A stretch of 33,964 bases of DNA from Eubacteriales Family XIII. Incertae Sedis bacterium (lineage in GTDB: Bacteria > Bacillota > Clostridia > Peptostreptococcales > Anaerovoracaceae). Positions 19,089 to 33,964 of the stretch are shown one piece after another (positions within the stretch are counted from its first letter, which is position 1; every line of letters starts with the position of its first letter). Made by a program: the position numbers and the translations under genes. Below the pieces are notes generated by a model. The model worked only from the letters and a program-made list of their open reading frames with translations, searched no databases and was not told where the DNA came from. The stretch lies in contig JAITEX010000013.1 in assembly GCA_031281765.1 (NCBI GenBank), forward strand, positions 1-33,964. Direction: 5' to 3'.

Positions 19089-19895
19089 ATGGAAATCAAA
19101 AACAAACACTCACGGACCGCCTACCGCGTCTTTTGGGGCATGGTGTTCCTGCTCGCGGGCGCGGCCATCATACTGAACGTCACGGGGATATTCGAAATCC
19201 CGAGCGGCGTAGATCTCGGCGACCTCGTCTGGTCCGTCGCGCTTGCGCTCGTCTTCGTATGGAGCATTCTCCACCGGTTCTGGTTCTTCACCTTCTGCGC
19301 CATCATCGGCGCGGGCGCCGTCTGGAGGGACCAGCTCGGCTTGCCGAACGAAAGCTTTTGGCCCATTGCCGGTGCGGCGTTATTGCTGAGCATCGGCCTG
19401 TCCATCCTGCTCAAGCCGAAACGCCGGTATGATTGGTCATACGAATATATCGGGAGATCTTCGCCCGGGCAGGGCGGATCGGACGGAAGTGAGGCGCAGA
19501 CGCCGCACAAGGAAGGCGTTGCTTCTTCCGGCGGCATACACACCTCCGCGACCGGGGACGATAATGACGTCTTTATCAAGGCTTCGTTCGGCGCGACCAT
19601 CAAATACGTGAACGCGCAGGCGCTGAAACACGCCTATCTCGACTGCTCGTTCGGCTCCATCAAGGCCTTTTTCGACAATGCGGCCATCCATGCGGACGGC
19701 GCCGTCATAGAGATAGACAATTCCTTCGGCGGCGTGGAGCTGTATATCCCGAAAGAATGGCGTTTGACGGACGACATCAATCGCATGCTCGGCGGCGTTG
19801 ACGTGAAAAACCCCGGTTTCGAAAAAGCGACGGGGCCCCCGGTCACACTGACCGGCAGCGTCAAATTCGGCGGCATAGAAATCATCTATGTGTAG
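19089..19895 (+). CDS. LiaF-like membrane protein (C-terminal cell-wall-antibiotic-response fold)
   Basis: Hydrophobic N-terminal helices; C-terminal ASFGATIKYVNAQALKHAYLDCSFGSIKAFFDNA...VEIDNSFGGVELYIPKEW (LiaF/DUF2154 style). Confidence 0.75.
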   Translation: MEIKNKHSRTAYRVFWGMVFLLAGAAIILNVTGIFEIPSGVDLGDLVWSVALALVFVWSILHRFWFFTFCAIIGAGAVWRDQLGLPNESFWPIAGAALLLSIGLSILLKPKRRYDWSYEYIGRSSPGQGGSDGSEAQTPHKEGVASSGGIHTSATGDDNDVFIKASFGATIKYVNAQALKHAYLDCSFGSIKAFFDNAAIHADGAVIEIDNSFGGVELYIPKEWRLTDDINRMLGGVDVKNPGFEKATGPPVTLTGSVKFGGIEIIYV

Positions 19896-19906
19896 CGACG
19901 TACAAC

Positions 19907-19946
19907 GACACAAATAAGAACGTCCCCATTGTGTTCCCATTGTGTT
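19907..19946. repeat. Dispersed 'ACACA..GGGGACG' repeat, copy 2
   Basis: GACACAAATAAGAACGTCCCCATTGTGTTCCCATTGTGTT. Confidence 0.75.
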
Positions 19947-19969
19947 CGATTTAGTATAATAGAGGCACT

Positions 19970-20416
19970 ATGAAGCTGCGCATTGAAACGGACGAAAACG
20001 CGGAAGAAACCGAAGTCGTGATACGCTGTCGGGAAATAGACAGTGAGGTCGCGGGAATACAGAACGCCGTGCTCACGCGGGCGGCGGGCGGCGCGAAGAT
20101 ACGCCTGTCGAAAGGCGGCGAGGATTTTTTCCTGCGGCCGGACGAGATATTATTCTTTGAATCCGAGGGCGGCCGGACGCGGGCGCATACGGCCGGCGAG
20201 GTCTTTGAGACAAAACTGCGGCTCTATGAGCTTGAGGAAGCGTTGCCGCGCGGCTTTCTGCGCGTATCCAAATCGGCCATTCTGAATACGGGCAGGATAT
20301 ATTCCATCGCGAAGAACCTGACGGGGCCGAGCATCGTAAGCTTCCGCGGCAGCCACAAACAAATCAGCGTGAGCCGCCAATACTTCTCCTTGTTGAGCGA
20401 CAGGTTGGAGCGGTAA
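19970..20416 (+). CDS. LytTR-type DNA-binding regulator (no receiver domain)
   Basis: GGEDFFLRPDEILFFESEGGRTRAHTAGEVFETKLRLYELEEALPRGFLRVSKSAILNTGRI...ISVSRQYFSLLSDRL. Confidence 0.9.
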   Translation: MKLRIETDENAEETEVVIRCREIDSEVAGIQNAVLTRAAGGAKIRLSKGGEDFFLRPDEILFFESEGGRTRAHTAGEVFETKLRLYELEEALPRGFLRVSKSAILNTGRIYSIAKNLTGPSIVSFRGSHKQISVSRQYFSLLSDRLER

Positions 20417-20533
20417 ACAGGGAAATTTGCGATTTCCTGAGCGGCGCTATCGCGATGGTACAAATATCGCGGCGGATAGAGTATAATAGTAAACGGTAAT
20501 TATACAAAGCATTGAAACGGAAAGAGGAATGCC

Positions 20534-20686
20534 ATGAAGCAAATAAAGACCATTTCGAAGGGTTCGGTCAAGGATATACGGAACAAGGGCTGCGGCGAAT
20601 GCCAGACGTCCTGCCAGTCCGCGTGCAAGACATCCTGCACGGTCGCGAACCAGGAGTGCGAGAATATTACTACTAAACGCAGATGA
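20534..20686 (+). CDS. scfA: SCIFF family ranthipeptide precursor (six cysteines in forty-five)
   Basis: MKQIKTISKGSVKDIRNKGCGECQTSCQSACKTSCTVANQECENITTKRR* (50 aa; Cys at 20, 23, 27, 31, 35, 42). Absent from ORF track because it is short; stop overlaps maturase start as ATGA. Confidence 0.95.
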   Translation: MKQIKTISKGSVKDIRNKGCGECQTSCQSACKTSCTVANQECENITTKRR

Positions 20687-22020
20687 TTCATCTCTTCACG
20701 TTCAAGGACCTGAATATCGTAACAGATACCGAAAGCGGCGCCGTTCACGTAGTGAGCGGCACTGTTTACGATATGCTGTCCGCAGCGGAACACAAAAAGG
20801 ACCGTCCCTTTTGTGTTGACGCGTCCACACAGCGAGAGGCAAAAGAGGAAATAGAGGAGCTTGTCCGCGAGGGACTGCTTTTTTCGGAGCCGGTTCCCGA
20901 GGAACTCGTGTCACCGGAGCTGCGCGAGCCCGTTATCAAGGCCATGTGCCTGCATATCGCGCATGATTGCAATATGCGCTGCGCCTACTGTTTCGCGGGG
21001 ACGGGCGAATACTCGGGCGAGCGCTCCCTGCTTCCGGCCGAAACGGGCCGGAACGCGATAGACTTTCTGCTTGAACATTCCGGAACCCGCAGGAACCTTG
21101 AGATAGACTTCTTCGGAGGCGAGCCGCTGATGAACTTCGGCGTCGTTCGTGACCTGGTTCGCTACGGGCGCGAACGCGAGCGGGAGCTTGGCAAGCATAT
21201 CCGCTTCACGCTCACGACGAACGGCCTTTTGCTCGACGACGAGAACTCGGCCTTTATCAATGAGCATATGGACAATGTGATTTTGAGTATCGACGGCAGG
21301 CCTGAAGTGAACGACCGCGTGAGGCGCACGGTAGCCGGCGGCGGTACATATGAGCATATTATAGGAAAGCTGCGGAGATTCGTGAAAGCGCGCGAAAAAG
21401 CCGGCAAACTCTACTACGTGCGCGGCACCTACACCGCGTATAACAAGGACTTTGCAGAGGACGTGGCGCATCTTGCCTCGCTCGGTTTCGGGAATGTCTC
21501 CGTCGAGCCCGTCGTGACTTCCGCCGAAGAGGACTTTGCGCTGACCGAAGCGGATATACCGGAGCTCTGCGCCGAATATGACCGGTTAGCCGACCTGATG
21601 ATAGAACGCGAAAAGAGCGGCGCGCCCCTTTCGTTTTTCCACTTCAATATCGACCTCTCGCAGGGCCCGTGCGTGTTCAAGCGCGCGGCGGGTTGCGGCG
21701 CCGGCACGGAATACGTGGCCGTGGCCGCAAACGGGGACCTCTATCCCTGCCACCAATTTGTCGGCGAGCCGGCATACCTGCTCGGCAACGTCAATGCGGG
21801 AAACTTTGAAAACCGCCTGTTTGACACGTTCAACACGGCGCACATCTTCAGCAAGCCCGCCTGCCGCGACTGCTGGGCGAAATACTGGTGCAGCGGCGGC
21901 TGCCACGCGAATGCGGTCCATATGAACGGCGATATTCTGCGGCCCCATGAACTCGTTTGCGCCCTCGAGCGCAAACGCCTCGAATGCGCCATCGGCCTTG
22001 CCGCGCTTGCTCAGATGTAG
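20683..22020 (+). CDS. scfB: SCIFF thioether-forming radical SAM/SPASM maturase
   Basis: CNMRCAYCFAG radical SAM motif, FFGGEPLMNF, SPASM Cys pattern C..GAGTEYVAVAANGDLYPCHQFVG...CRDCWAKYWCSGGCHANA; immediately 3' of the SCIFF precursor. Confidence 0.95.
   Translation: MIHLFTFKDLNIVTDTESGAVHVVSGTVYDMLSAAEHKKDRPFCVDASTQREAKEEIEELVREGLLFSEPVPEELVSPELREPVIKAMCLHIAHDCNMRCAYCFAGTGEYSGERSLLPAETGRNAIDFLLEHSGTRRNLEIDFFGGEPLMNFGVVRDLVRYGRERERELGKHIRFTLTTNGLLLDDENSAFINEHMDNVILSIDGRPEVNDRVRRTVAGGGTYEHIIGKLRRFVKAREKAGKLYYVRGTYTAYNKDFAEDVAHLASLGFGNVSVEPVVTSAEEDFALTEADIPELCAEYDRLADLMIEREKSGAPLSFFHFNIDLSQGPCVFKRAAGCGAGTEYVAVAANGDLYPCHQFVGEPAYLLGNVNAGNFENRLFDTFNTAHIFSKPACRDCWAKYWCSGGCHANAVHMNGDILRPHELVCALERKRLECAIGLAALAQM
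20789..20817. repeat. Dispersed repeat-family palindrome, copy 3, within the maturase coding sequence
   Basis: AACACAAAA-A-GGAC-C-GTCC-C-TTTTGTGTT near-perfect inverted repeat; shares the ACACAAAAxGGAC core with copies 1, 2 and 4. Confidence 0.65.
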
Positions 22021-22151: not shown

Positions 22152-22775
22152 ATGCCCACACAGACGTTTAATAATCTTAATGAAGAAAAAAAGACCCGAA
22201 TACTCGGGGCCGCAGCCAAGGAGTTCAGCCAGAGAAACGTAGAGGAGGCTTACCTCTCCAATATCGTAAACGACGCGAAGATAGCGAGGGGAAGCTTCTA
22301 TCAGTATTTCGCGAACAAGGAAGACCTGTACACCTATGTGTTCGAGAAGCTGAGGGCTGAACGCTCCGAGTATGTGCAACCCGCCTTCGAGTTTTACAAG
22401 ACCGAACCCTTTATGCGCTTCTTTGAGGAATTCTATGTATTGGACAGCGAGTTTTTATTGTCGCACCCCCAGCATATTGAACTCGGGAAGCACCTGTACG
22501 GACACGCGCACGGCGTTTCACGGCGATTGATACAGAATATCCAGACAAAGTACAAGGAGATGTTTCTGATTGCGATAGCTTACGACAAGGATCGCGGCCT
22601 CATATCGGAAGACATAAATACGGGCAGCTTAGCCGACCTCTGCGTTCATCTTACCACGGATATATTCATCTTCCAGTGCGTCATGGATCAACTTTCCCTG
22701 AGGAATATCAAGGAATATACGAAGAATATGCTGACCATTATACGGAAGGGCATAGAACCAAAACAGGGAGCCTGA
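22152..22775 (+). CDS. TetR/AcrR family transcriptional regulator
   Basis: KKTRILGAAAKEFSQRNVEEAYLSNIVNDAKIARGSFYQYFANKEDLYTYVFEK (TetR HTH); GGAGG SD upstream. Confidence 0.93.
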   Translation: MPTQTFNNLNEEKKTRILGAAAKEFSQRNVEEAYLSNIVNDAKIARGSFYQYFANKEDLYTYVFEKLRAERSEYVQPAFEFYKTEPFMRFFEEFYVLDSEFLLSHPQHIELGKHLYGHAHGVSRRLIQNIQTKYKEMFLIAIAYDKDRGLISEDINTGSLADLCVHLTTDIFIFQCVMDQLSLRNIKEYTKNMLTIIRKGIEPKQGA

Positions 22776-22972: not shown

Positions 22973-23698
22973 TTATAAACGCATACCGCCATTTACGCTG
23001 AGCAGATGCCCCGTGACATAGCTGCTTTCGTCGCTTGCGAGAAAGAGCGCGGCATTTGCGATTTCCACAGGTTCCCCGAGGCGTCCGAGCATGGTCAACC
23101 CCGCGAATTTATCCAAGAGGTCCTGCGGCACGGTTTTCAGTATATCGGTCATGACGTAACCGGGAGCGATGGCATTGCAGCGCACATTTGCCCCCTTGCG
23201 GGCGAATTCTTTGGCCCAGGTCTTTGCCATGCCCACTACGCCGGCCTTGGTCGCGGCATAATTCGTCTGGCCGATATTCCCGAATTCCCCGACAACGGAT
23301 GAAATGTTGATAATAGAACCGGAACCCTGTTCCATCATAAGCGGCCCGATGAGCCGGGCCATATTAAAGACCCCTTTGAGGTTGATGGCGATGACGAGGT
23401 CCCATATTTCGTCGGTCATCTTCTGTATCAGCGCGTCCCGCGTGATCCCCGCGTTGTTCACGAGCACATCGATTTTTCCGTGGCTGCCGGTGATTGCGGA
23501 AACCGCGTCCGCACAGCTTTGTGTGTCGGTAACATCCAACCGGATATATTCGACATTATCAGCCTCATAAGAGAGCGGCTGCAAATCACCGGCAAACACG
23601 ATTGCTCCCTCTCTTGCAAACAGCTTACAGCATTCCGCTCCTATACCGGCGGAACCCCCGGTCACTAATGCGACCTTTCCTTCCAAACGCTTACTCAT
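22973..23698 (-). CDS. SDR family oxidoreductase, FabG-like (3-oxoacyl-ACP/CoA reductase)
   Basis: GKVALVTGGSAGIGAECCKLF, DVLVNNAGITRDALIQKM, SSVVGEFGNIGQTNYAATKAG. Confidence 0.9.
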   Translation of the reverse strand: MSKRLEGKVALVTGGSAGIGAECCKLFAREGAIVFAGDLQPLSYEADNVEYIRLDVTDTQSCADAVSAITGSHGKIDVLVNNAGITRDALIQKMTDEIWDLVIAINLKGVFNMARLIGPLMMEQGSGSIINISSVVGEFGNIGQTNYAATKAGVVGMAKTWAKEFARKGANVRCNAIAPGYVMTDILKTVPQDLLDKFAGLTMLGRLGEPVEIANAALFLASDESSYVTGHLLSVNGGMRL

Positions 23699-23779: not shown

Positions 23780-24598
23780 CTATGCTATGGCGATATGTTC
23801 GGTTTCGCTGTTTATGAAACCGAGCAGCAGCGCGACAAACTCGCCGGGCTTCTCGTACATTGAGGCGTGCCCCGCGTTCTCGATCGTCACATGCCCGGCC
23901 TTCGGTATGAGCCGCGCCAGTTCCTCCTGATGAAAGAACGGCGTCACAAAATCGCTGTCCGAGGATATGACCAAAGTAGGGGCCTCAATGCGCGGGAGCT
24001 CTGCGCGCTCGTCGTGGTTCTCCGCGCTGCGGGTAAGCCGCCCGAACGCGTCATACACCTCCGGCGTAAATATCTTTACGAATAAGTCCTCGCGTTTCGC
24101 CAGCCATTCGTAATTCTCCTCATAGTAGCGGGGAGAATAGATGATGGGAATACAGGTTTTGAAGAACATATGCCCGTCGTAGCTTGCAAAGGAGTATTCC
24201 CATGAGCGCCCTATATCCCGCAGCCATGCGGAGGTGTAGGCCGTCGTATTTGCCAGAATCAGTTTTTTTACCCGGTCCGGGTGGTTTATCGCAATCTTCA
24301 TCGCGATTTCCCCGCCGTAACTGATACCCGCGATATTGACCGCCGGCAGGCCGAGTTCGTCAAGCAGGGCCAAAGCGACCTCGACCTGGATGTCCTGGCT
24401 GTATTCATGATTCACCTTATCGCTCTTTCCCTGGTCTATGAAATCAAGCAGCAACAGCCTGTTCGATTTTGTGAATGCCGGGATAAAGGCGGCCCATGAC
24501 GCGCACGACATGAAGATACCGTTGAGTATGAGCAGCGGCTCGCCCTCACCCGTATCTTCGTAGTATATATCGTGTTCTCCGTATTTGAATTTTGGCAT
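23780..24598 (-). CDS. Alpha/beta hydrolase (paralogue A)
   Basis: IAGISYGGEIAMKIA nucleophile elbow, SSDSDFVTP acid, ENAGHASMYEKP His. Confidence 0.9.
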   Translation of the reverse strand: MPKFKYGEHDIYYEDTGEGEPLLILNGIFMSCASWAAFIPAFTKSNRLLLLDFIDQGKSDKVNHEYSQDIQVEVALALLDELGLPAVNIAGISYGGEIAMKIAINHPDRVKKLILANTTAYTSAWLRDIGRSWEYSFASYDGHMFFKTCIPIIYSPRYYEENYEWLAKREDLFVKIFTPEVYDAFGRLTRSAENHDERAELPRIEAPTLVISSDSDFVTPFFHQEELARLIPKAGHVTIENAGHASMYEKPGEFVALLLGFINSETEHIAIA

Positions 24599-24608
24599 AC
24601 TGCACCTC

Positions 24609-25922
24609 CTATTTCAGGTATTTGAGGGTTTTTGCTTCCTCAAGCAGCGTTTCGCGGAAGTCCGGATGGGCGATGGAGATGAGCCTTTCGGCCTTCTCGC
24701 GGACAGTGACGCCGCGCAGGTTGACCGCCCCGTATTCCGTTACAACCCAGTCCACATCATTGCGGCTGAGCGACACCGCCGCGCCGGGACGAAGCGTCGG
24801 GACGATTTTTGATACGGTCTTTCGCTCCCCCGTTTCCGCGTCCTTGATTGCGGTCGTGCTGTACAGCGCGATGATGGAGCGTCCGTTTTTTGATATTTGC
24901 GCTCCGATGGCGGTATCCGCCTGCCCCCCGGTACCGGATATTTGCACGGGCCCTATGCTTTCACTGCAGCACTGGCCCGTAAGGTCGATTTCAACGGTCG
25001 TATTGATGCTCACCTGATTGTCATTCCGCGCGATGACGTAGGGATCATTTACGAGAGCGCCGTTCTTTATCAGTATATCGGGGTTGTCGTTCATGAAATC
25101 ATACATTTCCTGATTGCCCAAAGCAAAGGCGCAGACGACTTTTCCCACGTCGACTTGTTTCTTGCTGCCGTCCACGACACCTATACGCATCAGTTCCATG
25201 ATCCCGGTCGTCATCATCTCGGTATGGATGCCGAGGTTGCGTTTCGCTTTCAAAAAATTACACACCGCATTCGGGATGCCGCCTATGCCCACCTGGACGC
25301 AGTCGCCGTCCTGTACGAGGTTTGCGATGAGTTCGCCTATCTTCATGTCCTTCTCGTTGCTTTCGACATCGGGAATCGTACCCAAAGAATAGTCGCATTC
25401 AATCACGTAGTCGATGTCGTCCCATTCGAGGTAATTATCCCCGAATACATGCGGAACATTCGGGCTGATTTCAAGAATAACAATATCGGCCTTTTTCGCG
25501 ATTTCCTCCTCGTAGGTGTTGCTGCATCCAAAGCGTATACGGCCCGACTCTTCGGGCATGGACGCCGCGCATATCATAATATTTGTTTTCTTGTGGAAGT
25601 TGCGCTTGGAAGCGGCCAGATGCAAATGGTTCGGGATGAATGAGACGCGGCCCGTGTCCGCGAGTTTGCGCAAGGTCGGCGTAATGAACCACGAATCTAT
25701 CAGGAACGCTTTATTGATGTATGTTTCCGTCAGATATTCGCCCTTGGCGGTCGGCATACAGTTTGTGATTGTCACGTCGTCTACCCGGTCCGCTATGGTG
25801 TGAAGCTGTCCCAGAAAAGCCTGCGGCTCGTTTCCTCCGAGCCCGACCGTGATGTTGAACCCGCTCTCCACGAGCGCCAACGCTTCCTCAACCGAAATTT
25901 TTTTGGAACTGTAATCAAACAT
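24609..25922 (-). CDS. Acetyl-CoA hydrolase/transferase family CoA-transferase (4-hydroxybutyrate CoA-transferase-like)
   Basis: GDCVQVGIGGIPNAVCNFLKAKRNLGIHTEMMTTGIMELM...VNDPYVIARNDNQVSINTTVEIDLTGQCCSESIGPVQISGTGGQADTAIGA...VVTEYGAVNLRG. Confidence 0.9.
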   Translation of the reverse strand: MFDYSSKKISVEEALALVESGFNITVGLGGNEPQAFLGQLHTIADRVDDVTITNCMPTAKGEYLTETYINKAFLIDSWFITPTLRKLADTGRVSFIPNHLHLAASKRNFHKKTNIMICAASMPEESGRIRFGCSNTYEEEIAKKADIVILEISPNVPHVFGDNYLEWDDIDYVIECDYSLGTIPDVESNEKDMKIGELIANLVQDGDCVQVGIGGIPNAVCNFLKAKRNLGIHTEMMTTGIMELMRIGVVDGSKKQVDVGKVVCAFALGNQEMYDFMNDNPDILIKNGALVNDPYVIARNDNQVSINTTVEIDLTGQCCSESIGPVQISGTGGQADTAIGAQISKNGRSIIALYSTTAIKDAETGERKTVSKIVPTLRPGAAVSLSRNDVDWVVTEYGAVNLRGVTVREKAERLISIAHPDFRETLLEEAKTLKYLK

Positions 25923-25923
25923 C

Positions 25924-26967
25924 TTACTTTACCTTATCTTCCTTTCTCCCCCAACGAATGCACGTTGACGCCCAGACATACCCGATGCCCGCGGCTATCA
26001 TTGTCACAATATCCCCCTCTTTGATTTTCCCCTGTTCAAGCCCGAGGGACAGGGTAAGCACCTGATCCACCTGGCCGATGTGGCCATAGTCCTCCAGATA
26101 AATCGATTGGTCCTCCGAGAGGCCCATCTCCGCTAATATCGCCTTATGTTGGCTTCTCTTGAAATGCAGTATGCCGAGATAGTCAATATCCGCTCTCGTC
26201 AGACCACCGCTCTTTCGGAGGCTTTCGTCTATGCAGCGGTACCAGTTGGGAAGGCTGACCTCGTTCAGCCGGTTCTTCATATTTTCCGCGTCTAAGAGCC
26301 GCAGGGATTTGTAGCCTTCCTCCACCGTGTCGGGAGTGAACGGCCGGTTGATGCCGCCTATCTCGACAGCCGCCGCATAAGCAAGCGAACCGTCGGCTAT
26401 GATGTGCGACCCCAATATCAGATTGCGGTCCATCCCTTTCTTCAGGATCAGCGCACAGCCTCCCGCCGCGAGATTGTACATCATGCTCATATTCTTGTCG
26501 GTGTAATCCACGAAATCCCCGTTGCGATACCCGCCCGCGATAAGAATCGTATCTATCTCATCGTCGGAGATGAGCATGTCCTTCGCGATTTTCAAGGTGC
26601 TGAGCGTGGTACAGCAGCGGTTTGCCAGATCTATGCCCCACGCGTTCACCGCGCCTATCTCATTTTGTATATACAAGGCAGAGGTCGTCAGCCCGTATTC
26701 CTTCCATTCTTCTCCCACGCACAGAATCACGTCTATTTCCGCGGGGTCTATGCCCGTTCGCCGGATGGCGTCGGCGGCCGCGAGCGCACCCATGCGTTGG
26801 GTCCCGTCATGCGCGCCCGGGACAGGCTTGCGTCGGACGCCGAGTTTCTCGATGACAGCTTCCTCACTCCACACGCCTTTTGTAGCGTCGGCTATTTCCT
26901 TCGCTGTCATAAAGGTGTCCGGTATATACAGCCCGTAACCCGCTATTCCTATGTTTTCTTCTTTCAT
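25924..26967 (-). CDS. 3-oxoacyl-ACP synthase III-like (KASIII/thiolase-fold) protein
   Basis: NIGIAGYGLYIPDTFMTAKEIADATKGVWSEEAVIEKLGVRRKPV...DLANRCCTTLSTLKIAKDM...LGILHFKRSQHK...YGHIGQVDQVLTLSLGLEQGKIKEGD. Start taken at ATG 26967 (SD GGGGG) rather than 27012. Confidence 0.85.
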   Translation of the reverse strand: MKEENIGIAGYGLYIPDTFMTAKEIADATKGVWSEEAVIEKLGVRRKPVPGAHDGTQRMGALAAADAIRRTGIDPAEIDVILCVGEEWKEYGLTTSALYIQNEIGAVNAWGIDLANRCCTTLSTLKIAKDMLISDDEIDTILIAGGYRNGDFVDYTDKNMSMMYNLAAGGCALILKKGMDRNLILGSHIIADGSLAYAAAVEIGGINRPFTPDTVEEGYKSLRLLDAENMKNRLNEVSLPNWYRCIDESLRKSGGLTRADIDYLGILHFKRSQHKAILAEMGLSEDQSIYLEDYGHIGQVDQVLTLSLGLEQGKIKEGDIVTMIAAGIGYVWASTCIRWGRKEDKVK

Positions 26968-27026: not shown

Positions 27027-27083
27027 ATATGACAACCTTGTCACATTTACCATCAGTATAGCACGCTGAAATTATTAATACAA
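27027..27083 (-). promoter_or_regulatory. Promoter plus operator for the KASIII operon
   Basis: Minus strand TTGTAT (27078-27083), 17 nt, extended -10 TGCTATACT (TATACT 27055-27060), 11 nt, TGACA-N4-TGTCA within palindrome 27027-27046 (plus strand ATATGACAACCTTGTCACAT). Confidence 0.7.
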
Positions 27084-27200
27084 TACAAAATACGTATTTT
27101 TTATTTGAGCGCCGCCGTTGGGTTTATCGTGAAATTCTCTTGTATAATAATATAATAAAGGTACTCAAAAATAAATTATAAAAAATAAGTAAAATTTATA

Positions 27201-27257
27201 TTGAATTATAGGAACCGACCTGTTATACTAAACACGTAAATGACACATATGTCATTT
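27201..27257 (+). promoter_or_regulatory. Promoter plus operator for the liv operon
   Basis: TTGAAT (27201-27206), 17 nt, TATACT (27224-27229), 11 nt, TGACA-N4-TGTCA within perfect-arm palindrome AAATGACA-CATA-TGTCATTT (27238-27257). Confidence 0.75.
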
Positions 27258-27347: not shown

Positions 27348-28223
27348 GTGGATATGATTATTCAACCGTTTATTCGGAGTCTTGAGACAGGCAGCGTGTA
27401 CGCGCTTGCCGCGTTGGGTATCATCATAGTGTGGCGAACAAATCTTGTGATGCACTTTGCGCAGGGTTCCATGGGAATGTTCAGCGCCACGGCCGTAGCC
27501 TTCGTGCTCAACAGGGCGGGCTTGCCGCTGTGGCTCAGTGTGCTTGCCGGCGTCGGCGTTGCCGTCCTGCTCGGTTTTGCCGTGGACTTCTCTATTATTC
27601 GCAGGCTGAAAAAGGCGACCGCCGTGGGCAAGGAGATTATTACGCTTGGCCTGATAATGGTGTTTCTCGGCCTGGCGCCCATTATATTCGGAACGGACCC
27701 GATGCAATTACCGAAGTTCATCACGAGCGGCGATGTGCAGCTTGGCGGCGCGTCGATTTCCTACAACGCGCTGCTGAATATAATCATAGGCATCGTCATA
27801 ACCTTGGTCCTTTTCTACATTTTGCAAAACACGAAGATAGGCCTTGCCGTCCGGGCGACGGCTTCCAGTGAAATTACGGCCCGCCTCATGGGCATTCCCA
27901 CCCGCACGGTGACCCTCTTTTCGTGGGCGACCGCGGGCGTGCTCGGCATGCTGGCCGGGGTGATGATTGCGCCGACGGTCATGGTCACGCCCTCCTTTAT
28001 GAACGCAGTACAGGTCAACGCGCTCTTTGCCTGCGTGCTCGGCGGGTTCCAAACCTTTTACGGCCCCGTGATAGGCGCCTACCTCATCGCCATTTGCAGC
28101 AATTTTCTCAAACTCTACGTCAGCTCGGTGTGGGGAGAACAGCTGATGTACCTCATCATATTGGCGTTCCTGCTGTTCCGTCCGAACGGGCTGGTTGGCA
28201 AGACGTATATCAAGAAGGTTTGA
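27348..28223 (+). CDS. livH: Branched-chain amino-acid-type ABC transporter permease LivH
   Basis: FIRSLETGSVYALAALGIIIVWRTNLVMHFAQGSMGMFSA...ARLMGIPTRTVTLFSWATAGVLGMLAGVMIAP; GTG start. Confidence 0.92.
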   Translation: MDMIIQPFIRSLETGSVYALAALGIIIVWRTNLVMHFAQGSMGMFSATAVAFVLNRAGLPLWLSVLAGVGVAVLLGFAVDFSIIRRLKKATAVGKEIITLGLIMVFLGLAPIIFGTDPMQLPKFITSGDVQLGGASISYNALLNIIIGIVITLVLFYILQNTKIGLAVRATASSEITARLMGIPTRTVTLFSWATAGVLGMLAGVMIAPTVMVTPSFMNAVQVNALFACVLGGFQTFYGPVIGAYLIAICSNFLKLYVSSVWGEQLMYLIILAFLLFRPNGLVGKTYIKKV

Positions 28224-28243
28224 CAAGGGGAGAAGGTGACGAT

Positions 28244-29326
28244 ATGACCGCTACGATCAAGCCGCAAAAGGCAATACAGGCAGTTTTGAAGAATGCGCAC
28301 GTGCAGTTTCTCGTCTTTGGCGGGCTGCTCCTGCTGCTGCCCGTCATCGCGGAATCCGGCATAATGAAAATGAGTACGCTTGAAACCCTCGGGTTTGTAT
28401 TGATATATTCCATCGTCTCTATCGGGATGAATCTTCTGCTCGGATATTCCGGGCTCGTATCGCTTGGTACGGCGGGCTTTATGGGGCTCGGGGCCTACCT
28501 CGCGGCATATACCGTTGAAAACCTCTCACTCTCCTTTTGGGTTGCCGTATTTGCGGCTATGGTTATTCCGACGGCCATAGGTCTGGCCGTCGGAGCCATT
28601 TCACTTCGTCTCCGCAATATCTATCTTGCGATAGCGACGCTGTGCATCTCGGAGATACTGATGAAGACCTTTGAACAGCTTGACTGGTTTACGGGGGGCA
28701 CCGCGGGAAAACAGTCGCAGTACCCCACTATCTTTGGCGACAAGTTGGATAGGGGCGGCGTCTTCGTCGTTATCGTCGTCGTCCTCGTGCTTATCATGAT
28801 GCTGACGCACAATATCGTGAACGGACAGATGGGAAGGGCCTTGCACGCCATGCGCTCCAGCGAAGTCGCCGCGCAGGCGATGGGCGTCAATCTCGTAAAA
28901 TACAAGCTCGTCGCGTTTGCCTTAGCCACAGCCTACGCCGGACTTGGCGGCGGCCTGTACCTGTTCTTCCTCAAGAGTTCCTATCCGAGTACGTGGAGTC
29001 TCATGCTTTCCCTGAACGTGATTGCCATGGTGGTCGTCGGCGGGCTGCGGTCCATATTCGGCACCGTGGCAGGCGCCGTTATTATCTGGGGAGTTCCGGA
29101 GCTTGTGTTAAAGAAGCTGCCCGTTATCGGGAGCATCAGCGGGTTGCCGTATATATTCAGCGGCATACTGATTATCGTCGTCATCATGTTTTTCCCGAGA
29201 GGGTTAAAAGGGCTGTTTGATATTATAGTCGACCGTATTCGCCGCCTGAGTAAAAAGAAGGTTTCCGCCGTACCCGGGAAATCCGCGGATACTACGGAGC
29301 CGACAGAACCGGAGGTGCAGCCATAA
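28244..29326 (+). CDS. livM: Branched-chain amino-acid-type ABC transporter permease LivM
   Basis: IYSIVSIGMNLLLGYSGLVSLGTAGFMGLGAYLAAYT...EVAAQAMGVNLVKYKLVAFALATAYAGLGGGLY. The ORF-track start (27923) extends out of frame through livH; ATG at 28244 used. Confidence 0.92.
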   Translation: MTATIKPQKAIQAVLKNAHVQFLVFGGLLLLLPVIAESGIMKMSTLETLGFVLIYSIVSIGMNLLLGYSGLVSLGTAGFMGLGAYLAAYTVENLSLSFWVAVFAAMVIPTAIGLAVGAISLRLRNIYLAIATLCISEILMKTFEQLDWFTGGTAGKQSQYPTIFGDKLDRGGVFVVIVVVLVLIMMLTHNIVNGQMGRALHAMRSSEVAAQAMGVNLVKYKLVAFALATAYAGLGGGLYLFFLKSSYPSTWSLMLSLNVIAMVVVGGLRSIFGTVAGAVIIWGVPELVLKKLPVIGSISGLPYIFSGILIIVVIMFFPRGLKGLFDIIVDRIRRLSKKKVSAVPGKSADTTEPTEPEVQP

Positions 29327-30171
29327 TGGAAAACACGAGAAAAGAAGCGTTGCGTATCGAGAAGCTGTCCATTCAATTCGGTGGGCTTAAGGCGCTCGAC
29401 GACCTCTCGTTCACTGTGTACGAGAATGAGATATTCGGGCTGATAGGACCCAACGGTGCGGGAAAGACCACGGTATTCAACTGTATTACGCAGTTTTACA
29501 AACCGGATGCGGGCCATGTTTTTTTCAACGCCTCTGACGCGCGGCAGCGCGGACATCTGAAGCGTCGTGATTTGCCCGCGGACGGAGAAATGGTCGACCT
29601 CGTCGGCAAACCCGTCCACCGGATCATCCGGTACGGCTTGGTTCGTACGTTCCAGAACGTAGAAGTGATTCCCGAACTCAGCCTGATAGACAATGTTCTG
29701 ATCGGAGCGCATGTGGACTTCAACTCCACGATGTTTGAGCAGGCGCTGCGGTTACCGAGGGCGCGGCGCGAGGAGAAAAAGCATCGCGCACAAGCGGTCA
29801 AAGCTATGGAGTTTCTCGGAATCGCGGATATAAAAGACCAGCTCGCGGGAGGCCAGCCGTACGGTATCTTGAAGAAGATAGAGATGACGCGTACCCTGAT
29901 GTGCGAGCCGCGCTTGATCATCCTTGACGAACCCGCCGCAGGACTCAATAACACGGAGACGGAAGAACTCGCGAAAATCATACACATGATACGCGAAAAC
30001 TACCATTGTACGATACTTTTGGTCGAACACGACATGAGATTGGTCATGGAGGTCTGTGACAGGATCTGCGCGATTTCCTTCGGCAAATTCCTTGCTACCG
30101 GGACGCCCGCGGAGATCCAGAAAGACAAATCGGTTCAGGAAGCATACTTGGGAGAACAGGAAGATGAGTGA
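29326..30171 (+). CDS. livG: ABC transporter ATP-binding protein LivG
   Basis: IFGLIGPNGAGKTTVFNCITQFYKPDAG, LIILDEPAAGLNNTETEEL; TAATG coupling with livM. Confidence 0.93.
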   Translation: MENTRKEALRIEKLSIQFGGLKALDDLSFTVYENEIFGLIGPNGAGKTTVFNCITQFYKPDAGHVFFNASDARQRGHLKRRDLPADGEMVDLVGKPVHRIIRYGLVRTFQNVEVIPELSLIDNVLIGAHVDFNSTMFEQALRLPRARREEKKHRAQAVKAMEFLGIADIKDQLAGGQPYGILKKIEMTRTLMCEPRLIILDEPAAGLNNTETEELAKIIHMIRENYHCTILLVEHDMRLVMEVCDRICAISFGKFLATGTPAEIQKDKSVQEAYLGEQEDE

Positions 30172-30883
30172 TTTGGCACTGAGCATTCGCGGATTGCGCA
30201 TCCGTTACGGGGCTGTCGAAGCTGTCAAGGGCATAGACATAGACGTCTATGAAGGCCAGGTCGTCGCCCTGCTCGGCGCGAACGGCGCGGGCAAGACGTC
30301 CACGCTGCGCAGCATATCCGGGCTTACTCCGGCGGATTCGGGGACGATTTCCTTTTTCGGCGTCGATATTACGCATACCGATGTTGAGAAAATCACCGCA
30401 ATGGGTGTCGTACAATCCCCCGAAGGCCGCCAGATATTCCGCGATTTGACGGTGGAGGAAAACCTCCGCACCGGCGCGTTCCCGCTCAAGAACAAGCGGC
30501 AGGTAGCGGAAAACTTCAAACGTTGCTACCGGTATTTTCCGCGCCTTGAGGAACGCAAATCACAGATGGGCTATACCTTGTCCGGCGGCGAACTCCAGAT
30601 GCTCGCGATTGCGCGCGCGCTGATGAGCAGCCCGCGGCTGCTCCTGCTCGACGAGCCGTCCCTTGGCCTCGCGCCCCTGCTCGTCCGCGATATTTTCAAG
30701 ATCATCGGGGAAATACGCAACGAAGGCGTCACCGTGCTGATTGTCGAGCAGAACGCGCTACAGACCCTGAAAATCGCCGATTACGGCTATGTGCTCGAAA
30801 CGGGCAAGAATAATATTCACGGCCCCGCGAATGAATTGATAAAGGATAAGCGCCTTGTGGAAGCCTACCTCGGCGCCATTTGA
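30164..30883 (+). CDS. livF: ABC transporter ATP-binding protein LivF
   Basis: VVALLGANGAGKTSTLRSISGL, LSGGELQMLAIARALMSSPRLLLLDEPSLGLAPLLV; overlaps livG end. Confidence 0.94.
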   Translation: MSDLALSIRGLRIRYGAVEAVKGIDIDVYEGQVVALLGANGAGKTSTLRSISGLTPADSGTISFFGVDITHTDVEKITAMGVVQSPEGRQIFRDLTVEENLRTGAFPLKNKRQVAENFKRCYRYFPRLEERKSQMGYTLSGGELQMLAIARALMSSPRLLLLDEPSLGLAPLLVRDIFKIIGEIRNEGVTVLIVEQNALQTLKIADYGYVLETGKNNIHGPANELIKDKRLVEAYLGAI

Positions 30884-30984
30884 GGCTCGCGTGTAGTGAC
30901 AAAAGCCCGATAATAAGATTGGGTTTATGTATAGAGTAAAACGGTTACAGTGAGAATTAAGTAAGAAGTTTGAGGAGGATTGAA

Positions 30985-32256
30985 ATGAAAAAGAAATTGT
31001 TAGTGCTCAGCTTGATTGTGGCGCTCGTAGGAACGTCGCTTCTTAGCGCGTGCGGCGGCGACAAATCGTCTGATAGCGACACCCCCGCGGATGGCGGCGA
31101 AACAGCCTATGTGCAGGGAATCACAGACGATGAAGTCATTATTGCCAACAGCGCCGCGACGTCCGGGGCCTATGCGCCGGTAGGCGTCCCCTTTGTTGCG
31201 GGCATAAATGCCTATATCGACATGGTCAATGAAAACGGCGGCATAGACGGACGGAAAATCACGTTCAAACATACCGACGATGAATTTGACCCCGCCAAGG
31301 GCGCGGCCGCATTGACGGAATACGTGGAAGATGAGAAGGTGTTTGCCATCGTCGGACACTTCGGCACGCCGGTCGTTGCGGCGACCATCAACGCGCTGAA
31401 GGACTACGGCATCCCTTCGGTGTATTTCGCGACCGGTATCGGCCAGCTGTACGCTACGGATGCCAAGACCAACGCTGATGGCTACAATATTTTCCCGGTC
31501 CAGCCGATTTATAATACGGAAGGCAAGATCATGGTCGCCTATGCGACGGGTAAGTTCGCGGCCAAGAAAATCGGCATCATCTACACGAACGATGACGCGG
31601 GCATGGATCTCGAAAAAGGGGCAAAGGAACAGATTGAATCGATGACCGGCATCGAACTCGTTGAGGAACAGGTAGCTGCGGGCGCCGCGGACGTTTCTGC
31701 GGCGGTCACCTCCATCAAAAACGCGAACGTTGACTACATCATCGTCGCTTCCATACAGGCCACCATGCCGACCATCGTCAAGGAGCTTGCCGCGCAGAGC
31801 GTCAACAAGGACTGCATCACCACCTATGTCAACGTATCGGACGCGATGAGCAGCGCGGTGCGCGACGACATCAAAGGCAAGTTTGACCTCTACGGCTTAG
31901 GCTGGGTTGCCTACGATACCCCGGAAGCTCAGGAAGCATTGGCCACATACCAATCACGGATCGACAAAGAATACGCGAGCAATCCCTACGCGCAGACCGG
32001 TTGGATAGCGGGGCATTTCTTCGCGGAAGGCCTCCGCAGGCTTGAGGGCAAAGAAGTTACCTGGGAGAGCTACATGAAAGCGCTTGAAGATGGAACTATT
32101 CAGAACCCGTTCGGAGGACAGATCGACTTTTCGAACGGCCAGCGTATCGGTACGCAGGAGATGAACCTGTCCAAAGTGACGGACGTTTCCGATGCCGCGC
32201 CGTTTGGCTGGGAAGCCGTAATACCGTTGACTTCAATGAACGACCTGTTGAAGTAA
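30985..32256 (+). CDS. livK: ABC transporter substrate-binding lipoprotein (LivK/type I periplasmic-binding)
   Basis: MKKKLLVLSLIVALVGTSLLSACGG lipobox; DDEVIIANSAATSGAYAPVGVPFVAGINAYIDMVNENGGIDGRKI; AGGAGG SD. Confidence 0.93.
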   Translation: MKKKLLVLSLIVALVGTSLLSACGGDKSSDSDTPADGGETAYVQGITDDEVIIANSAATSGAYAPVGVPFVAGINAYIDMVNENGGIDGRKITFKHTDDEFDPAKGAAALTEYVEDEKVFAIVGHFGTPVVAATINALKDYGIPSVYFATGIGQLYATDAKTNADGYNIFPVQPIYNTEGKIMVAYATGKFAAKKIGIIYTNDDAGMDLEKGAKEQIESMTGIELVEEQVAAGAADVSAAVTSIKNANVDYIIVASIQATMPTIVKELAAQSVNKDCITTYVNVSDAMSSAVRDDIKGKFDLYGLGWVAYDTPEAQEALATYQSRIDKEYASNPYAQTGWIAGHFFAEGLRRLEGKEVTWESYMKALEDGTIQNPFGGQIDFSNGQRIGTQEMNLSKVTDVSDAAPFGWEAVIPLTSMNDLLK

Positions 32257-32332: not shown

Positions 32333-32369
32333 CAAAAGGAACACAAAAGGGACGGTTCTTTTTGTGTCA
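32333..32369. repeat. Dispersed 'ACACA..GGGGACG' repeat, copy 4 (opposite orientation to copies 1 and 2)
   Basis: ACACAAAAGGAACACAAAAGGGACGGTTCTTTTTGTGTC. Confidence 0.75.
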
Positions 32370-32406
32370 CTGCGAAGTGAGTTCTGGGATAAAGGAGGAA
32401 AATAGT

Positions 32407-33219
32407 ATGTCTGAACGAGTGATTTCAGGAGTGAACCTTTATTATGAAGACCTCGGCGATCCTGACAGCGCCGACGTCATTGCCTTCTTTAACGGGGTAA
32501 TGGCCTCGACGAACAGCTGGGAGGGTATCTACCCCACCTTTATTGACAAAGGGTTTCGCGTCATCCTGCATGATTTCAAGGGGCAATTGAAGTCGGGGAA
32601 GCCGGAAGGGCCGTACACCTTTGAAGAACACGCGCGGGAAGCGAATGCGCTGTTAGAAAGCCTTGGCGTCACAAAAGCGCATCTTATCGGAACGTCTTAC
32701 GGCGGGGAAGTGGCGATGAAATACGCCGTCTTGTTCCCTGAAGCGGTCTCGACGATCTCCCTGATAGATTCCGTAAGCGAGTTGGACGAGGCGCTGAAAA
32801 GCTTTGTGCTCGGTTGGAAGGTACTCTGCGATACGAACGACGGAACAGTCTTTTTCAAAGGGATGGCGCCGAGTATCTACGGACCTGTTTTCATGGACAA
32901 GGAGCGGGAATTTCTTGAAGAGAGAGCGCTCGCCTTTGGAAAGGTGTCTCCCGATTATTTCACGGGGCAGAAATATCTGTACGATACCTTTGCGAACGAC
33001 GTGACCATGACGGACGACCTTCCGAAAATCAGTTGCCCGGCGCTCGTTCTCTGTGGAGAGGACGACATCCTGAAAAGACCGAAATTCTCCAGAATCATAG
33101 CGGAGCGAATCCCCTCGTCCGAGTACCTGCTTATACCGGATTGCGGGCACGTGGCTATCCTCGAAAAGCCCCGCGAACTAACCTCCGCGATACTGGGGTT
33201 CATCTTGAAGAATAGCTGA
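32407..33219 (+). CDS. Alpha/beta hydrolase (paralogue B)
   Basis: LIGTSYGGEVAMKYA, CGEDDILKRP, PDCGHVAILEKP; N-terminal VNLYYEDLGD resembles IYYEDTGE of the protein at 23780. Confidence 0.9.
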   Translation: MSERVISGVNLYYEDLGDPDSADVIAFFNGVMASTNSWEGIYPTFIDKGFRVILHDFKGQLKSGKPEGPYTFEEHAREANALLESLGVTKAHLIGTSYGGEVAMKYAVLFPEAVSTISLIDSVSELDEALKSFVLGWKVLCDTNDGTVFFKGMAPSIYGPVFMDKEREFLEERALAFGKVSPDYFTGQKYLYDTFANDVTMTDDLPKISCPALVLCGEDDILKRPKFSRIIAERIPSSEYLLIPDCGHVAILEKPRELTSAILGFILKNS

Positions 33220-33359: not shown

Positions 33360-33398
33360 ATCCCATCAATTGCACTGATGCACTAAGGGGAATTTGAC

Positions 33399-33964
33399 AT
33401 GGGACCATATGCGGAGCCGGAGCGCGAGTACAAAAACAACGTGTTTATCGATTATATAGGGACAAAGGACCGGCTTATCGAAGTCTACAACGCCATTCGC
33501 GGCACGGACTACCCGAAGGACACGGACATAGAAATCAATACGCTGAAGAATGTGCTCTATCGGTTTATCCAAAATGATATTTCATTTGTGATAGACGGGA
33601 AGCTCGTCGTTTTGATAGAGCACCAGAGTACGATAAACGACAATATGCCCATACGGATGCTCGAATATATCGCGAAGATATATGAGCAGATGATAGAGGG
33701 CGACGCCTATTACCGGAAGAACCGAATCATGCTGCCGCGGCCGGAGTTTATCGTGCTCTATAACGGGAAAGAGAAATATGACGAGCGGAAGGTGTTGAAG
33801 CTCTCATCATTATACGCGGACGGCGGTAACGGTGATGATTTGGAGCTGAACGTGACGGTATACAACATTAATTCCGGGATGAACAGGGATATGCTCGCGC
33901 GGGCCAAGGCGCTGAACGATTACGCGACGCTCATAGCGAAGGTGCGTGAGTTCGAGGAAATGAC
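33399..33964 (+). CDS. Rpn family recombination-promoting nuclease/putative transposase (PD-(D/E)XK), C-terminus off window
   Basis: KNNVFIDYIGTKDRLIEVYNAIRGTDYPKDTDIEINTL...DISFVIDGKLVVLIEHQSTINDNMPIRMLEYIAKIYEQM; no stop in window so absent from the ORF track. Confidence 0.85.
   Translation, partial: MGPYAEPEREYKNNVFIDYIGTKDRLIEVYNAIRGTDYPKDTDIEINTLKNVLYRFIQNDISFVIDGKLVVLIEHQSTINDNMPIRMLEYIAKIYEQMIEGDAYYRKNRIMLPRPEFIVLYNGKEKYDERKVLKLSSLYADGGNGDDLELNVTVYNINSGMNRDMLARAKALNDYATLIAKVREFEEM

Follow-up and report, generated by a model that had tools for sequence, protein, structure and literature searches.

Two exact TGACA-N4-TGTCA palindromes in the 33,964-nucleotide stretch of DNA analysed here (the window) very probably serve as operators for a TetR-family protein, the product of 22152-22775, which would repress two divergent promoters and be released from both together by a small molecule. 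The palindromes, the only two exact copies found in a scan of the whole window, lie in the 380-bp intergenic region between an operon for a KASIII-like enzyme, a CoA-transferase, a hydrolase, and a short-chain dehydrogenase (SDR), and an operon for a Liv-type ABC importer. An earlier sequence-only reading had named this TetR as the candidate regulator, and three separate lines of comparative evidence link the motif to it: the co-occurrence of both in orthologous loci across phyla; their paired replacement in other loci; and a family-wide signal of such sites upstream of the genes of distant TetRs, suggestive of autoregulation. The best reading is that a local TetR with an HrtR-type half-site would run an uptake and catabolic regulon, while the genes of its distant relatives often stand at the head of exporter operons. 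The switch itself is ordinary in kind; the regulon is uncharacterised, and the joint exchange of repressor and operator is the evolutionary twist. What began as a guess from one sequence is now a predicted regulon whose operator is defined, and many uncultured anaerobes can be scanned for that operator.

The sequence-only reading had described two divergent promoters with the same -10 hexamer (TATACT), 17-nt spacers, and a TGACA-N4-TGTCA palindrome 11 nt further on, and our own reading of the sequence bore out all of these elements and offsets; that both promoters match the consensus is likewise seen in the sequence. On the plus strand the operator core is TGACACATATGTCA (27241-27254), with arms that reach AAATGACA...TGTCATTT; on the minus strand it is TGACAAGGTTGTCA (27043-27030). 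If transcription starts about 7 nt past each -10, as we infer, each operator spans roughly +5 to +18. A TetR dimer would bind each of these sites, which begin some 5 nt past the predicted starts, and once bound would stand in the way of RNA polymerase at either promoter. The inducer would be a small molecule, probably the substrate that the importer brings in or a compound derived from it; with TetR released, the importer and the KASIII/CoA-transferase/hydrolase/SDR operon, that is, uptake and breakdown, would probably be switched on together.

Table. Predicted regulatory sites and genes of the two divergent operons and of tetR, with positions in the window.
Feature	Position (strand)	Description	Basis or remark
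Operator 1, TGACA-N4-TGTCA	27030-27043	over predicted start region of KASIII promoter	sequence; kept in relatives
Operator 2, AAATGACA-N4-TGTCATTT	27238-27257, core 27241-27254	over predicted liv start region	sequence; kept in relatives
Predicted sigma-70 promoter, KASIII operon	27055-27083 (-)	TTGTAT 27083-27078, 17 nt, TATACT 27060-27055	
Predicted sigma-70 promoter, liv operon	27201-27229 (+)	TTGAAT 27201-27206, 17 nt, TATACT 27224-27229	
tetR	22152-22775 (+)	TetR-family candidate repressor, 207 aa	HrtR-like DNA-binding end (R46, Y50, Q51)
SDR	22973-23698 (-)	FabG-like short-chain dehydrogenase	last gene of minus operon
Hydrolase	23780-24598 (-)	PcaD-like alpha/beta hydrolase	score under family cut-off
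CoA-transferase	24609-25922 (-)	4-hydroxybutyrate/butyrate CoA-transferase type	minus operon
KASIII-like enzyme	25924-26967 (-)	first gene of minus operon	NF005308/PRK06840, 459 bits (cut-off 315)
livH	27348-28223 (+)	LivH-type permease	first gene of plus operon
livM	27923-29326 (+)	LivM-type permease	listed frame begins within livH; real start probably further 3'
livG	29326-30171 (+)	LivG-type ATPase	
livF	30056-30883 (+)	LivF-type ATPase	real start probably 3' of 30056
Binding protein	30970-32256 (+)	Liv-type substrate-binding lipoprotein	Peripla_BP_6
Second hydrolase	32362-33219 (+)	PcaD-like alpha/beta hydrolase	candidate liv-operon member

Judged from their families, the genes of the two operons likely serve to take up a small carboxylic compound, activate it with CoA, and cleave it thiolytically; the corresponding set in relatives has a beta-ketothiolase or an acyl-CoA dehydrogenase as its neighbour. 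The second PcaD-like hydrolase, which has a 69% relative near the regulon in one other locus, perhaps belongs to the liv operon as well. A search of the literature on the KASIII/Liv gene set found no paper. Phloroglucinol degradation was considered as the pathway and rejected: that cluster has a Mn-dependent cyclohydrolase and a triacetate acetoacetate-lyase, and its description names neither a KASIII nor a CoA-transferase (PMC10470551). The proposed control by TetR would tie an uncharacterised set of genes for uptake and CoA-dependent catabolism to one switch, and the ligand that releases TetR would offer a route to the substrate. The tetR gene is convergent with the 3' end of the KASIII operon. 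Directly upstream of it lies a SCIFF system (20530-22020), in which the gene for a radical-SAM maturase (TIGR03974, 606 bits) follows that for its Cys-rich precursor peptide (MKQIKTISKGSVKDIRNKGCGECQTSCQSACKTSCTVANQECEN...); at 19089-20416 the gene for a LiaF-like membrane protein precedes one for a LytTR DNA-binding protein, and an open frame at 33380-33964 that runs past the end of the window resembles, by eye, transposase-like proteins of the Rpn/PD-(D/E)XK type.

A scan of genome contigs located 80 loci that encode a KASIII relative (65-77% identity). By gene content they fall into two groups: in one, from Bacillota, Actinomycetota, and Synergistetes, an orthologue of the TetR is present and the liv genes are mostly divergent; in the other, the orthologue is absent and the same genes mostly run all in one direction. 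The earlier reading had held that absence of the motif from orthologous loci would speak against it. The site is present in all 23 loci that have both the TetR orthologue (52-63% identity) and upstream sequence, as an exact copy in 22 of them and usually at least twice; a twenty-fourth locus was left out of this count because its sequence ends before the promoter. These motif-bearing loci span Bacillota, Actinomycetota, and Synergistetes. Five further loci carry sites and have the TetR orthologue (56-64% identity) elsewhere in the genome, and two have a site with no orthologue found in their draft genomes. The TetR-bearing and TetR-lacking loci belong largely to separate lineages and the 80 loci are not independent, so Fisher values calculated on them overstate significance and are given no weight here. 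In the alignment of orthologous loci the information content falls to about zero beyond some 4 bp from the operator core; the rest of the spacer has therefore turned over while the operators stayed.

The arrangement around the sites is less constant on one side than on the other. On the KASIII side most relatives in the Firmicutes and Synergistetes have a promoter like TTGAAA-17-TATACT with the operator 10-14 nt past the -10, whereas on the liv side the geometry of promoter and operator varies; in Propionibacteriaceae the operator on this side seems to sit between a TTGACA -35 and its -10. The exact match of the two promoters is therefore mostly particular to the genome of the window. Placement over the core promoter or start region would block the polymerase and fits what is expected of a repressor. 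A site also occurs close to tetR itself in some relatives (three loci), and the tetR genes of Actinobacteria are found downstream, along the direction of the operon. The variable liv side, together with the dissimilar cores and arms of the two operators (AAATGACACATATGTCATTT vs ATGTGACAAGGTTGTCATAT), would suit a TetR that binds both sites without switching the operons together, either by controlling mainly one promoter or by responding at clearly different inducer levels. We consider this quite unlikely, since neither site departs from the motif here and nearly all divergent loci keep the pair.

The link between the motif and the neighbouring TetR also receives support from loci in which the regulator is a different one. 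Where the TetR carries RGS-x-YQYF, TGACA-N4-TGTCA occurs in 21 of 23 loci and ATGAA-N6-TTCAT in none; where an unrelated TetR with GTFY(I/L)YF is encoded, as in many of the loci lacking the orthologue, the former occurs in 0 of 25 and the latter in 19 of 25. The reversed form of ATGAA-N6-TTCAT, searched as a control, was absent from both groups (23 and 25 loci). The second palindrome lies near the tetR gene of the GTFY(I/L)YF type, sometimes in two copies about 180 bp apart (loci with this TetR and palindrome: L069, L075, L076, L078, L079, L083, L088, L094-L097, L103, L105, L106, L110, L111, L113). From these sequences, regulator and operator appear to have been swapped as a pair while the pathway stayed the same, and the swap may reflect few evolutionary events. 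We regard it as probable that a clade of HrtR-like TetRs with N4 operators, many of which apparently regulate their own exporter operons, was recruited to a conserved regulon for import and acyl-CoA catabolism, and that elsewhere this regulon is served by an unrelated TetR that has a palindrome of its own, regulator and operators being exchanged as a unit. Such an exchange, with the pathway itself conserved, offers a clean example from nature of rewired local regulation. The operator of Bacillus FadR, also a TetR, is TGAATGANTANTCATTCA, and ATGAA-N6-TTCAT of the swapped loci resembles it. FadR shares with the window TetR its fold and the local control of acyl-CoA metabolism, which is predicted in the window; however, its half-site differs from those of the window operators, and the window TetR scores 34 bits against the NCBIfam FadR model, under the cut-off of 200.

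The window TetR contains the N-terminal helix-turn-helix of the family (Pfam TetR_N, 40.2 bits; cut-off 24), and its AlphaFold2 model is a confident, all-helical, two-domain TetR fold (pLDDT 89) whose Foldseek matches are TetR regulators, 3nrg and TM1030 being the best and FadR and MtrR among the others. These properties, and the palindromic operator nearby that the comparative data indicate, place the protein in the TetR family. HrtR of Lactococcus lactis, repressor of hrtRBA (PDB 3VOK, 3VOX, 3VP5), is its second-best sequence match in the PDB (E=5.5e-10). The operator of HrtR is ATGACACAGTGTCAT, that is, TGACA-N3-TGTCA, as against N4 in the window and in its orthologues. The two proteins have in common a recognition region, RGSFYQYF, with R46 and Y50, both invariant in the 24 TetR orthologues. 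HrtR senses heme through H72 and H149, contacts DNA with R46 and Y50, and binds a 15-nt palindromic operator (PMC12839281). The corresponding heme-ligand positions of the window TetR are S72 and G149; since both ligands are absent, heme is unlikely as inducer and was dropped as a candidate. R68, R71, H108, D145, H166, D170, and Q175 are likewise invariant in the 24 orthologues and are candidates for ligand contacts or for structural roles. The two regulators also differ in their surroundings: HrtR controls the heme exporter hrtBA within the hrtRBA operon, whereas the window TetR adjoins the KASIII and Liv operons for uptake and catabolism. Another TetR repressor with two palindromes (14 nt each) in one promoter region is FhtR of Enterococcus faecalis, which resembles the window TetR in this layout but is a heme sensor, one with no significant identity to HrtR (PMC7858072). 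Literature searches for the string RGSFYQYF found no paper, and those for the exact motif strings found only papers on plant WHIRLY, copper resistance, and GraSR, none of them on a TetR.

The motif extends to distant relatives of the window TetR. We searched 296 Bacilli genomes with the N-terminus of HrtR and read the 160 bp upstream of the start of each match. An exact TGACA-TGTCA palindrome with a spacer of N3 or N4 was found in this interval for 49 of the 77 HrtR-like TetRs with R46 and for 0 of the 10 with K46, and no other spacer appeared among the same proteins when lengths of 0 to 8 were tried. When the recognition-helix columns were left out, the resulting tree separated the N3 from the N4 proteins by one change and placed the window TetR inside the N4 clade (SH-aLRT 96). 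The members of the two clades (L149-L154, L170-L258; Bacilli and relatives) often have paired sites upstream of their own genes, and several TetRs with N3 or N4 sites head TetR-ABC exporter operons. Distant members of the group often appear to control their own genes, several of them in exporter operons. Six such operons in Bacilli and relatives encode TetRs 24-34% identical to that of the window, of the same N4 clade, with an exact TGACA-N4-TGTCA a short way upstream of their start; unlike in the window, the apparent target there is the exporter operon that contains tetR. No TGACA-N4-TGTCA was seen upstream of the tetR gene of the window, which in this differs from the majority of distant HrtR-like TetRs. 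As the N3/N4 split shows, operators with one common half-site come in two spacings among these TetRs. Residue 56 correlates with the spacing (K56 with N4 and L/I/M56 with N3; 24:5 vs 3:17, Fisher p about 5e-6), but a spacer code at this residue was rejected: on the tree the spacer changes once and K56 seven times, varying inside both clades while the spacing stays the same. The correlation comes down to a single event, and a role of residue 56 in determining the spacing is not demonstrated.

These upstream sites also bear on the proposal that some other protein, for example a regulator of the CRP/FNR type, binds the palindromes. FNR sites consist of two 5-bp half-sites with a 4-bp gap, a layout similar to that of our motif, but the half-sites here are TGACA and TGTCA and not TTGAT and ATCAA, the sites lie downstream of the -10 in the position of a repressor, and the motif tracks TetRs of the window type and precedes the genes of distant TetRs from the group to which these belong. 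We judge such a regulator to be very unlikely.

That the matched promoters and palindromes are a coincidence is hardly credible: shuffling the 380-bp intergenic region by dinucleotides 20,000 times gave two copies of the motif in no case and one copy in 3, and the motif is conserved in dozens of genomes, orthologous loci included. A control blind to the motif (any pair of 5-4-5 palindromes that share their arms) was satisfied in 26 of 5,000 shuffles of the region. Frequent occurrence across the genome, which the sequence-only reading had listed as a possible objection, was likewise not observed: of exact copies the 1.56-Mb assembly (72.6% complete) has three, including the two at this locus, and the pattern read backwards gives 0 matches. 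The third copy (contig C7, 11806-11819) is the one point in favour of coincidence: a single further copy is about what chance predicts, and this one was judged a chance occurrence; its neighbours are a response-regulator/HD-domain gene on one side and a small Hpt-like gene on the other.
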